A stretch of DNA of 64,000 nt from an uncultured Acidobacteriota bacterium (GCA_903847975.1 CAINFC010000122.1:1-64000), one strand, 5' to 3'; positions 245 through 19,257 are shown, numbered from the stretch's first letter. Translations and numbers: made by a program. The notes: generated by a model not told the origin, from the sequence alone.

Positions 245-330
245 AAGTCCCGTAAGGGACGGCAGATTGTGGCCCGGCACGTGAGTGCCGGGTTGGGGCA
301 GGAGCAACCCAAGTCCCATCGGGACGGCAG
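245..330 (+). repeat. Three-palindrome interspersed repeat, unit 2
   Basis: Second unit in inverted orientation to unit 1, about 105 bases away. It holds AAGTCCCGTAAGGGAC, then CCCGGCACGTGAGTGCCGGG, then AAGTCCCATCGGGAC. The palindromes are kept while their loops differ (ATAAAT, CGTGAG, ATGGAA in the three full copies), as expected if structure is conserved. Units 1 and 2 form an inverted pair like a bacterial interspersed mosaic element. Confidence 0.85.
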
Positions 331-15780: not shown

Positions 15781-16130
15781 GAACTTCCTCCGGGGTTTGA
15801 AAAACCGAATTACACGCTTTTGCTGATAGATTTAAGTTTACGGCGCCTGCCCGGCAAAAACAAGATCGGAACCACAAGAAAGCCGAGGCGCCAAGGAAAA
15901 CCGGCCTCGGCAGCTACCACTATGTGGATTTATTCCGGGAGCACCGCGCCGGACTCCCAGGCGTCGTATCCCGCACGGCATCATGATTTCCCGCCGTCTT
16001 TACATCGCAGGAACCCTTGCGTTACCATATAAACGAGCTGCTCATGGCCGGGACGCGACCGATTGCAGCGCGGCTGCATGCGCGCGATGTCGTCCCGGTT
16101 CATCCGCAGCCAGGGAAAACCATTTCCGAA
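15781..16130. other. Gene-free region before the riboswitch
   Basis: About 350 bases between the divergent OmpA-domain gene and the riboswitch. It holds a 7-bp hairpin (GCCGAGG at 15882-15888 with CCTCGGC at 15905-15911) and presumably both promoters. I see no convincing reading frame or strong -35/-10 pair. Confidence 0.4.
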
Positions 16131-16197
16131 TCGGCAAACCCATTGCGAAGTGGGGACGCAAAGTCATGGGTCTGATGGCAGACCGCCAGACTACCGA
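16131..16197 (+). ncRNA. Cyclic-di-GMP-I (GEMM-I) riboswitch aptamer
   Basis: This 67-base aptamer shows the GEMM-I core. P1 pairs UCGG (16131-16134) with CCGA (16194-16197). The first hairpin is CCCAUU-GCGA-AGUGGG, with a GNRA tetraloop. The highly conserved GACGCAAAG follows at 16155-16163. The second hairpin is GGUCU-GAUGGC-AGACC with a following GCCAG. This class binds cyclic di-GMP and switches expression of the downstream gene, here the secreted subtilase at 16312. Loop and core matches are strong. The direction of control (on or off) is not read from the aptamer. Confidence 0.92.
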
Positions 16198-16218
16198 AAA
16201 ATGACGAAGGTCTTTCGG
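16194..16218 (+). promoter_or_regulatory. Alternative hairpin overlapping riboswitch P1
   Basis: CCGAAA (16194-16199) can pair with TTTCGG (16213-16218). It uses the same CCGA that closes P1 of the aptamer, so the two folds exclude each other. No long T run follows, so this is not a standard terminator; about 95 bases remain before the start codon. It may be part of the expression platform. Confidence 0.5.
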
Positions 16219-16311
16219 TTTAGCTATACCGGAGGGCAGTCGAATCCAGCGCGAAGTCCAGCGGACAGCGCCTGCAATCGCAGCTCATTTTTTAGGAGGA
16301 GAATCCACGAT

Positions 16312-19257
16312 ATGAAAAGCAATATGGCATTGCTTACCACCTGGATTACCATTTCGGTAATCGGTTCGTCAACCCTTTTTCCAGCCTTGGCCTCGTCCGG
16401 CAGCAACGGCCGGCAAACCGCCGTCGGGCCCAGCCCCAATGGCGTATATATTGTTCAGCTGAAAGAAACACCGGTGGTGGCCTACGCCGGCGATATCCCG
16501 GGATTGAAGGCAACCAAACCGCAAAGCGGCCAGAAGATCGATCCGACCAGCCCGGTGGTCGTCAATTATGTCGGCTATCTCTCCGGGCGGCACAACGACG
16601 TTTTGCGGGCCGCCGGCGGGTCCAGGCTTTACGATTACTATTACGCTTTTAACGGCTTTGCCGCCCGGATGACCCAGGCGCAGGCCAACCGCATGACCGG
16701 CATGGCCGGCGTTCTGCAGGTTACTCCGGACAGTCTGCAGAATGCGGATACCAGCTCTACTCCTGCCTTCCTGGGGCTGAGTTCTGCAAACAGCTTGTGG
16801 GCTCATCTGGGCGGAACGGATCGCGCCGGAGACGGGATCATCATCGGTCTGGTGGACACCGGCATCTGGCCGGAGAGCCTGAGCTTTTTCGATCGGGTCG
16901 GCCTGAACGGCAATGCCAGCAAGGACGGCAAGCTGGCCTACCAACAGATTCCCGGATGGCACGGCAAATGTACGCCCGGCGAAGCATTTGTGGCTTCCCT
17001 GTGCAACCAGAAGCTCATCGGCGCCCAGTGGTTCAACCAGGCCTGGGGCGGCAATGCCGCCATCGATGCCAGCATGCCGTGGGAGTTCAGCTCGGCGCGC
17101 GACTACAATGGGCACGGTACGCATACCTCCTCGACTGCCGGCGGCAATACCGGCGTGGAGGTTACGGGTCCGGCCGCCGCGTACGGCAAAATCAGCGGCA
17201 TGGCTCCGCATGTCCGTATCGCCATGTACAAGGCGCTGTGGACCCAGCCGGATGGAACCGGCAGCGGATACACCAGCGATCTTCAGGCGGCGGTCGACCA
17301 GGCGGTGGCCGACGGCGTGGATGTCATTAACTATTCCATCAGCGGGACCTCGACCAACTTTCGCGATCCGGTTCAGATTTCTTTTATGTACGCCGCCCAG
17401 GCGGGTATTTTTGTGGCCACCTCCGCGGGCAACAGCGGGCCGACGACAGCCACCGTCAGCCACCCCAGCCCATGGGTTGCCACGGTTGCGGCCGGCACGC
17501 ACAACCGGACGGCTGTGGGTGCGGCAGTGGTCCATGGTACGACTTATTCCGGAGCCTCTCTTTCCACGGCGATCGTCACGGCTCCGCTGGTCAATGCCGC
17601 GGATGCCGCCCTTCCGGGTGCCGACGCGTATAAAGTTAAGCTATGCTATGCTGCAGCGGACAACGGCGGCAGCCCGGTCCTGAATCCGTTGAAAGTGGCT
17701 GGAAAAATCGTGGTCTGCGACCGCGGAGTCACCGCGCGGGTCAACAAGAGCCTGGCTGTTTTCGAAGCCGGCGGAGTCGGGATGATCCTGATCAATCCCG
17801 CCAGCGGCACGCTGAATGCCGACTTCCACTCGGTTCCCACGGTTCACCTTCCGGATGCAGCCCATGCGCCTGTTCATGCCTCTGCCGCCCTTCCGGGTGC
17901 TACGGCTGTGATCCACAAGGCGACCATGGACTATACTTCGGCAGCGCCGTTTACGGCTTCCTTCTCTTCGCGCGGGCCTCTGCGGGCCTCCGGGGATCTT
18001 CTGAAGCCGGACCTCATGGCTCCCGGGCAGGATATTCTTGCGGCTGTCGCCCCCCCGGGCAACGGCGGGTTAAGTTTTGCCCTGTACAGCGGCACTTCCA
18101 TGTCCAGCCCGCACGTAGCCGGCCTGGCGGCCCTGCTGAAACAGGCGCACCCGGATTGGACTCCGATGATGATCAAATCGGCGCTGATGACCACAGCGTA
18201 TGACGTTCTGGACAACAACATCAGTAACGCCTCCAGGATCTTTCGCCAGGGGGCGGGCCACGTCCGGCCTAACGAAGCGGTGAATCCCGGCCTGGTTTTC
18301 GATTCCGGCATCAACGACTGGCTCGGATTCCTTTGCGGCACGCAGCTGCCTTCCGTTTACTGCTCCTCCCGGGGCATCCCGGTGCTTTCTCCGAGCAATT
18401 TCAACAGCCCGTCTCTGGCGATCGCCGCTCTGACGGGGTCCCGGACCGTGACCCGGACGGTGACCAACGTGGGGCCCAAGGCTACCTACACCGTTGAGGT
18501 CAGCGGTCTGGATGGCCTGACCGTGAACGTCTCCCCGGCGACCTTTACCCTGAATCCCGGGCAAAAGCAGGTTCTTACGATTACCGTCAGCCGCGTCACC
18601 GCCGCCCTGCATACCTATGTCGGGGGTTATCTGACCTGGAGCGACAACGCTCACCGGGTTCGCATCCCGGTTGAAGTTCAGCCGGCGGCTCTCAGCGCGC
18701 CGTCGCAGGTGTCGGGAAGCTACAGCGTAACCTTCGGCTACAGCGGCACATTTTCTGCCTCGCCGCGGGGCCTGCTACCCGCCGTTACCTTGACCAAATC
18801 CGCCGGCAACGGACAGTTGGTACCTTTCCCGGTCAACATTCCCGCGGGCACCACCTATGCGCGCTTTTCCCTGTTCGACGCCCATGTCACCCCGGGGAGC
18901 GACCTCGACCTTTACGTATATCAGGGGTCCACGCTGATCGGCTACAGCGGCAGTGCCACTTCCACCGAAGAGGTCAGCCTGCTCAATCCTGAGGCGGGTG
19001 ACTACACGGTTGTGGTGGAGGGTTATGCGACGGCCAATCCCTCCCACTTCACTCTTTTCTACTGGGCACTGGGCTCTGCGGCGGCGGGCAACATGGCTGT
19101 CTCTGCGCCCACCACGGCTGTCATGGGCAACACCGGAGTTATCAGCCTGTCTTTCAGCGGCCTTACCCCGGGAGTGAAATACCTGGGGTCGGTGGTTTAC
19201 GGCGGTGAGGAGGGAATGCCCAACCCGACGATCGTGAGGGTCGATCCGTCCAACTGA
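16312..19257 (+). CDS. Secreted subtilisin-like (S8) protease with PA, Fn3-like and PPC-like domains
   Basis: A 981-residue exported serine protease. The ATG at 16312 (AGGAGGAG upstream) gives a signal peptide to about residue 30, then an I9-type propeptide to about 150. The triad is Asp182 (LVDTGIWPES), His268 (NGHGTHTSS) and Ser596 (GTSMSSPHVAG); the oxyanion region is SAGNSGP. A PA domain is inserted between His and Ser, as in plant cucumisin-like subtilases. A Fn3-like domain (VTRTVTNVGP) and a pre-peptidase C-terminal-like module (DLDLYVY) follow. An extracellular proteinase is expected. A cyclic-di-GMP riboswitch lies in its leader, tying secretion of proteolytic activity to lifestyle signalling. 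Confidence 0.95.
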   Translation: MKSNMALLTTWITISVIGSSTLFPALASSGSNGRQTAVGPSPNGVYIVQLKETPVVAYAGDIPGLKATKPQSGQKIDPTSPVVVNYVGYLSGRHNDVLRAAGGSRLYDYYYAFNGFAARMTQAQANRMTGMAGVLQVTPDSLQNADTSSTPAFLGLSSANSLWAHLGGTDRAGDGIIIGLVDTGIWPESLSFFDRVGLNGNASKDGKLAYQQIPGWHGKCTPGEAFVASLCNQKLIGAQWFNQAWGGNAAIDASMPWEFSSARDYNGHGTHTSSTAGGNTGVEVTGPAAAYGKISGMAPHVRIAMYKALWTQPDGTGSGYTSDLQAAVDQAVADGVDVINYSISGTSTNFRDPVQISFMYAAQAGIFVATSAGNSGPTTATVSHPSPWVATVAAGTHNRTAVGAAVVHGTTYSGASLSTAIVTAPLVNAADAALPGADAYKVKLCYAAADNGGSPVLNPLKVAGKIVVCDRGVTARVNKSLAVFEAGGVGMILINPASGTLNADFHSVPTVHLPDAAHAPVHASAALPGATAVIHKATMDYTSAAPFTASFSSRGPLRASGDLLKPDLMAPGQDILAAVAPPGNGGLSFALYSGTSMSSPHVAGLAALLKQAHPDWTPMMIKSALMTTAYDVLDNNISNASRIFRQGAGHVRPNEAVNPGLVFDSGINDWLGFLCGTQLPSVYCSSRGIPVLSPSNFNSPSLAIAALTGSRTVTRTVTNVGPKATYTVEVSGLDGLTVNVSPATFTLNPGQKQVLTITVSRVTAALHTYVGGYLTWSDNAHRVRIPVEVQPAALSAPSQVSGSYSVTFGYSGTFSASPRGLLPAVTLTKSAGNGQLVPFPVNIPAGTTYARFSLFDAHVTPGSDLDLYVYQGSTLIGYSGSATSTEEVSLLNPEAGDYTVVVEGYATANPSHFTLFYWALGSAAAGNMAVSAPTTAVMGNTGVISLSFSGLTPGVKYLGSVVYGGEEGMPNPTIVRVDPSN

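Follow-up and report, generated by a model that had tools for sequence, protein, structure and literature searches.

The window that we analysed, a stretch of 64,000 nucleotides from an uncultured Acidobacteriota bacterium, carries on its plus strand a c-di-GMP class I (GEMM-I) aptamer, a platform of 112 nt with several nested hairpins and then the gene of a protease, P0001, whose features are collected in Table 1. P0001 is a predicted exported cucumisin-like S8 protease with complete catalytic motifs for Asp, His and Ser (VDTGIWP, NGHGTHTSSTAGG and SGTSMSSPHVAG, respectively), and its N terminus looks like a signal peptide by inspection. A domain search returns PF00082 (1.1e-43), PF02225 and PF17766, with PA, fn3_6 and I9 domains, and among solved structures the closest are 7eox, cucumisin (3vta, E 2e-82) and 3i6s, the last of which we take to be a plant subtilisin-like protease of the tomato type, with alignments over about 640 residues. 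An earlier sequence-only reading of this DNA had already called the gene product a cucumisin-like S8 protease, and these domain and structure matches agree with it.

Upstream of the start codon the protease frame stays open as far as a TTG at 16063, and we therefore considered the leader as coding; this was rejected, since the precursor with its signal peptide starts at 16312 behind a strong Shine-Dalgarno sequence and the aptamer fills the upstream part. Elsewhere in the window, an Rfam match on the opposite strand belongs to Acido-Lenti-1, an orphan RNA family of unknown function.

Table 1. Features of the protease locus and one further RNA match, in window coordinates
Feature	Position	Strand	Basis or remark
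c-di-GMP class I (GEMM-I) aptamer	16123..16199	+	RF01051 and RF03167 scores
P1 5' strand, UUUCCG	16123..16128	+	cmscan alignment, direct sequence reading
G at position 20 (Vc2 numbering), c-di-GMP versus cGAMP determinant	16133	+	alignment; PMC6456294
P2 with GCGA (GNRA) tetraloop at 16145-16148	16134..16159	+	cmscan alignment
GACGCAAAG core	16155-16163	+	aptamer core
A47, intercalating base (GGC family consensus has G)	16160	+	cmscan alignment, aptamer alignment; PMC3764141
P3	16162..16192	+	cmscan alignment
C92, Watson-Crick partner of the ligand and first base in both competing helices	16194	+	alignment, folding
Anti-P1 hairpin B, CCGAAA 16194-16199 with UUUCGG 16214-16219, inner GAC/GUC	16194..16219	+	folding, -8.2 kcal/mol
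Hairpin D, 10 bp; removes UUUCGG from B and GGGC from T	16210..16237	+	folding, -14.5 kcal/mol
Long-range helix C, CC-GAAAAAUGA 16194-16204 with UCAUUUUUU-A-GG 16285-16296	16194..16296	+	folding
Terminator-like hairpin T (16234-16286), long and imperfect, then A and U6 (16288-16293)	16234..16293	+	folding, -20.9 kcal/mol
Shine-Dalgarno AGGAGGAG, AGGAGG (16294-16299) 12 nt from ATG	16294..16301	+	sequence
Sigma-70-like promoter match TTTACA-18-TACCAT, the only one in the leader; weak, 0.4 expected by chance	15999..16028	+	pattern scan
P0001 (981 aa), predicted exported S8 subtilase of the cucumisin type; signal-peptide-like start, I9, S8 with PA insertion, fn3_6, PPC	16312..19257	+
Acido-Lenti-1 RNA	246-292	-	Rfam, 46.5 bits, cut-off 37

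The aptamer and its ligand

Two Rfam models recognise the aptamer: RF01051 matches 16123-16198 (+) with 62.8 bits against a cut-off of 35 in the covariance search, and RF03167, which a cmscan of the whole window reports as the best clan member, gives a full-length match at 16124-16199 (+; 62.2 bits against a cut-off of 59, E = 2.7e-12). With either model, this is the only aptamer site in the genome (8.13 Mb). The sequence-only reading had proposed a GEMM-I aptamer and had pointed to a sub-threshold covariance score as one result that would speak against it; the RF01051 score passes with ample margin, and the GNRA hairpin, GACGCAAAG core and second hairpin that it described are all found. Its start was less well placed, at 16131, some 8 bases downstream of the true start at 16123, a range that loses the 5' strand of P1.

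In the cmscan alignment the P2 and P3 stems are intact and the GNRA tetraloop is present, and the equivalents of the interhelical C44-G83 can be assigned by position to C16157 and G16185. The predicted weak point of the aptamer is P1, which is short and imperfect: the register of the model leaves a C:C mismatch at 16127:16195, and an alternative register of five pairs (G16128-C16195, C16127-G16196 and UUU with AAA, C16126 being bulged) pairs cleanly with one bulge but makes J1/2 one base shorter. P1 also has a low probability in free folding, and the U and C at positions 18-19 are unusual.

The ligand contacts named for this class are G20, A47 and C92, with A48 added among the key bases (PMC4744006, PMC3764141), and our alignments find all four in the window, as G16133, A16160, A16161 and C16194. 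Whether position 20 is A or G sets the preference for cGAMP or c-di-GMP, and A20G suffices to convert a GEMM-Ib riboswitch from cGAMP to c-di-GMP (PMC6456294). The pocket bases of the window aptamer are thus those of the canonical c-di-GMP type and not the cGAMP type, with position 20 favouring c-di-GMP, and since the genome encodes 15 GGDEF (diguanylate cyclase) domains by domain search, production of this second messenger is to be expected. Could the aptamer nevertheless sense 3',3'-cGAMP, as GEMM-Ib riboswitches do? Aptamers of the A20 type are present in the same phylum sample (L011, L015 and L016), so that the contrast between G20 and A20 is real within the group, yet with a G at this position in the window we consider cGAMP sensing very improbable. 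We are just as sceptical of membership of c-di-GMP-I-GGC (RF03167), possibly with a changed ligand preference, which is a far-fetched reading even with RF03167 as the top clan match above its cut-off: the consensus of that family, whose name presumably refers to pocket bases, shows a strongly conserved G opposite A16160 of the window, and RF01051 scores equally well on the same stretch, so the aptamer is best filed as ordinary class I. Two of the A20-type, cGAMP-like aptamers have targets of their own, L011 lying upstream of pilM and L016 upstream of a GH44 glycosidase.

The expression platform

The 3' strand of P1, together with C16194, has three mutually exclusive partners, namely the 5' strand of P1, hairpin B and helix C, and in our folding model this competition would make a workable switching platform. 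The CCGAAA/UUUCGG pairing of hairpin B is perfect, CCGAAA being C92 plus the 3' strand of P1, and helix C, whose whole strands are CCGAAAAAUGA and, at 16285-16296, UCAUUUUUUAGG, encloses hairpin D and two small hairpins and covers the U6 run as well as the start of the Shine-Dalgarno sequence. From 16194 to 16312 the RNA folds more stably than dinucleotide-shuffled versions of it (z = -3.15, 2/200), and the pairing between the P1 strand and the Shine-Dalgarno region, equalled in 35 of 1000 shuffles, is modestly above chance. The reuse of CCGA in a second hairpin, which the sequence-only reading had noticed, is real and extends to a further partner at 16285-16296; its statement that there is no U-run does not hold, given the U6 immediately 5' of AGGAGG. 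A simple pattern scan of the leader finds no intrinsic terminator, since the stem in front of the U6 run is too long and imperfect for such a scan to catch hairpin T. Within the platform, an Rfam search finds no other RNA family at E values up to 10, and no close homologous leader that would give covariation for it was found.

Recurrence before S8 subtilases

A phylum sample of 396 genomes was searched with RF01051, and the first substantial downstream gene was scored. Above the cut-off lie 74 aptamers, which make 69 sites when tandems are merged, in 52 genomes and 27 families. An S8 subtilase comes first downstream at 12 of these 69 class I sites, in 10 genomes. These fall into four families, with one group for the window genome, one for G001 and G006 (both with tandem aptamers), one for G022, and one for G154, G176, G190, G218 and, with two sites each, G055 and G230; PF00082 matches coincide with these places. 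With 4-24 S8 matches per genome, and with per-gene fractions that are estimated, well below one S8 site would be expected by chance, a comparison that overstates the enrichment because exported proteins are a preferred target of class I switches in any case and a single family supplies eight of the 12 sites. The other targets in the sample include GH18, GH44, DUF11 surface proteins and multihaem cytochromes and, by sequence inspection, pilM- and CAP-like genes.

The related S8 leaders also resemble that of the window in their folding. Seven of the eight S8 leaders of family f27, as well as L045 and L047, form a hairpin between the 3' strand of P1, or the sequence that continues it, and a strand upstream of the Shine-Dalgarno sequence, although in L105 of f27 it is mostly the continuation that pairs; hairpin B of the window follows the same principle.

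Several further observations came out of this survey. The aptamers of family f27 (L048, L049, L093, L098, L100, L104, L105 and L106) carry a compensated C21-G46 at the base of P2, with GCC...GACGG in place of GGC...GACGC, that is, C-G for the usual G-C at positions 21/46, and their platforms to the S8 start codon are mostly very short, at about 40 nt. At L010/L027 (G001:C10), L012/L026 (G006:C192), L005/L022 (G016:C70), L014/L029 (G106:C54) and G230:C215, class I aptamers stand in tandem, separated by about 100-460 nt; two of the pairs, in G001 and G006, precede S8 subtilases, and tandem arrangement suggests steeper or two-input control. In family f29, seven aptamers (L101, L107, L110, L120, L121, L122 and L129) are separated by 500-700 nt from an ispE-like gene downstream, and their target may be a short, unlisted gene within that interval, and five class I aptamers (L113, L114, L118, L123 and L126) stand directly before small CAP-like secreted proteins.

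Origin of the coupling

We built a maximum-likelihood tree from 48 S8 domains, and in it a fully supported group unites the window protease with relatives from Chloroflexota and from one Holophagales MAG contig (L032-L034 and L037). These nearest relatives, mostly from Chloroflexota, are 60-68 % identical to it, and no Rfam-detectable switch was found at their four loci. The other 10 switch-bearing S8 proteases in the tree fall into a separate, well supported clade, and counting well supported branches alone there are at least four changes of switch label, so that at least two of the couplings must be independent. The genome stands isolated, and no close relative of the locus as a whole was found: none of the 37 other genomes of the class has a member of the window's S8 subfamily, and the phylum sample holds five members, all of them distant. 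The simplest reading would be that the protease was acquired horizontally and was then coupled to the switch. The broader idea, that exported subtilases of this phylum have repeatedly and independently been captured by class I switches, among them a cucumisin-like protease that looks horizontally acquired and lies behind the only such switch of its genome, is one that we hold tentatively, as a little short of an even bet. The Chloroflexota MAG with a 65 % protease relative (L034) has one class I aptamer of its own, L131, which lies elsewhere in that genome and precedes the gene of another secreted protein, as judged from ORFs only.

Proposed mechanism and direction of control

Taken together, we predict with considerable confidence that a c-di-GMP class I riboswitch makes up the leader of the subtilase gene and controls the protease. 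It might be objected that the aptamer is a decaying or inactive remnant without effect on the protease, and the short P1, its C:C in the model register, the unusual U18 and C19, the single genomic copy and the lack of a conserved platform for comparison would all fit such a view. However, the contact bases, the tetraloop and the P2 and P3 stems are all intact, a strong anti-P1 hairpin is found in related leaders as well, and S8 genes recur behind class I aptamers, and we regard decay as quite unlikely.

A controlling riboswitch would work as follows. With c-di-GMP bound, 16194-16199 would be kept in P1 and the pocket; in the ligand-free state this segment would be taken first by the anti-P1 hairpin and later by helix C, which would pair it to the U-run and to the edge of the Shine-Dalgarno sequence. 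In the modelled bound state hairpin D would be kept, hairpin T would be lost at the time when the U-run is transcribed, and the U-run beside the Shine-Dalgarno sequence would be freed later. Indeed, in folding, the probability of hairpin T at nucleotide 16287 is 0.78 for the free RNA versus 0.01 with aptamer and P1 enforced, and enforcing them in the full leader releases the U-run from helix C. At full length the bound fold is less stable than the free fold by about 10 kcal/mol, in a model that omits tertiary and ligand energies, and binding would therefore need to be cotranscriptional. Cotranscriptional binding is how Cd1 and pilM have been modelled, with a competing helix that takes the equivalent of C92 and abolishes ligand binding (PMC9262584).

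Because hairpin T is lost and the U-run freed in the bound state, the folding leads us to lean weakly towards an ON switch, in which high c-di-GMP would give more protease. The footing of this sign is weak, since the accessibility of the Shine-Dalgarno sequence is nearly equal in both states in simple folding, and a comparison of such accessibility across 12 leaders gave no consistent direction. The same riboswitch might instead be an OFF switch in the manner of zmpI or Cd1, in which bound c-di-GMP would set the downstream strand free and the protease would be made, as a dispersal enzyme, only when c-di-GMP falls, and we think that this story, which was that of the sequence-only reading, is a serious contender that falls somewhat short of even chances. 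The best-known class I control of a secreted protease, that of zmpI in C. difficile, is negative (PMC6366702); with P1 formed, the U6 run is single-stranded behind a small CUGC/GCAG hairpin and could be a weak terminator; and in the related S8 leader L048 the exposure of the Shine-Dalgarno sequence drops when the P1 strand is occupied. Against this, the terminator-like hairpin T is lost and not gained in the bound state of the window, and the leaders of nearby class members with clear U-tracts (L005, L011 and L015) build their terminators on the 3' strand of P1, which is the pilM-type ON layout. The sequence-only reading proposed a role in biofilm exit or feeding, and biofilm exit would require repression by c-di-GMP, the opposite of the ON lean. 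Control at translation or at a distant site, as had been suggested earlier, is possible, and a terminator-type mechanism is equally possible.

Significance

Riboswitches for c-di-GMP have mostly been discussed in connection with motility, pili and matrix genes. Here, in one phylum, four families have a class I switch before genes of exported serine proteases, a coupling that arose separately at least twice, and if these switches are functional, c-di-GMP would in these bacteria act directly, at the level of the transcript, on extracellular proteolysis; if repeated independent capture is true, secreted proteolysis would even be a standard output in the phylum. Should the ON lean be correct, the window protease would belong to the sessile programme, with matrix or polymer degradation at the surface. 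A secreted protease under class I control has a precedent in zmpI; what is new here, as far as we have checked, is that S8 subtilases have been coupled to such switches repeatedly, and a search of an incomplete literature collection yielded nothing on class I switches before S8 peptidases.

Comparison with known systems

With the class I riboswitches (RF01051; Vc2 and Cd1) the window shares the P1-P2-P3 arrangement, the GNRA loop in P2, the GACGCAAAG core, the bases G20, A47, A48 and C92, and a competing helix in which C92 and the 3' strand of P1 are sequestered. Unlike Vc2 and Cd1, the window aptamer has a short and imperfect P1, possibly with one base of J1/2 missing, U and C at positions 18-19 and a 112-nt nested platform. 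It scores above the cut-off of c-di-GMP-I-GGC (RF03167) and differs from it in having A, not the consensus G, at position 47. The pilM-type GEMM-Ib (cGAMP) riboswitch of Geobacter has the same scaffold and likewise uses the 3' strand of P1 in a competing helix (PMC9262584), whereas the window has G20 in place of A20 and is without a compact terminator directly after the aptamer.

Among switch-controlled genes, the closest parallel is zmpI (PPEP-1) of C. difficile, where a class I c-di-GMP riboswitch also precedes the gene of a secreted protease (PMC6366702). The zmpI product, however, is a zinc metalloprotease; it releases named adhesins, and c-di-GMP switches it off, whereas the window gene encodes a cucumisin-like serine protease. 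This protease, in turn, resembles the cucumisin-like subtilases 3vta, 3i6s and 7eox in combining an S8 domain with a PA insertion and an fn3_6 domain, and differs from them in being bacterial and in its extra C-terminal PPC region.
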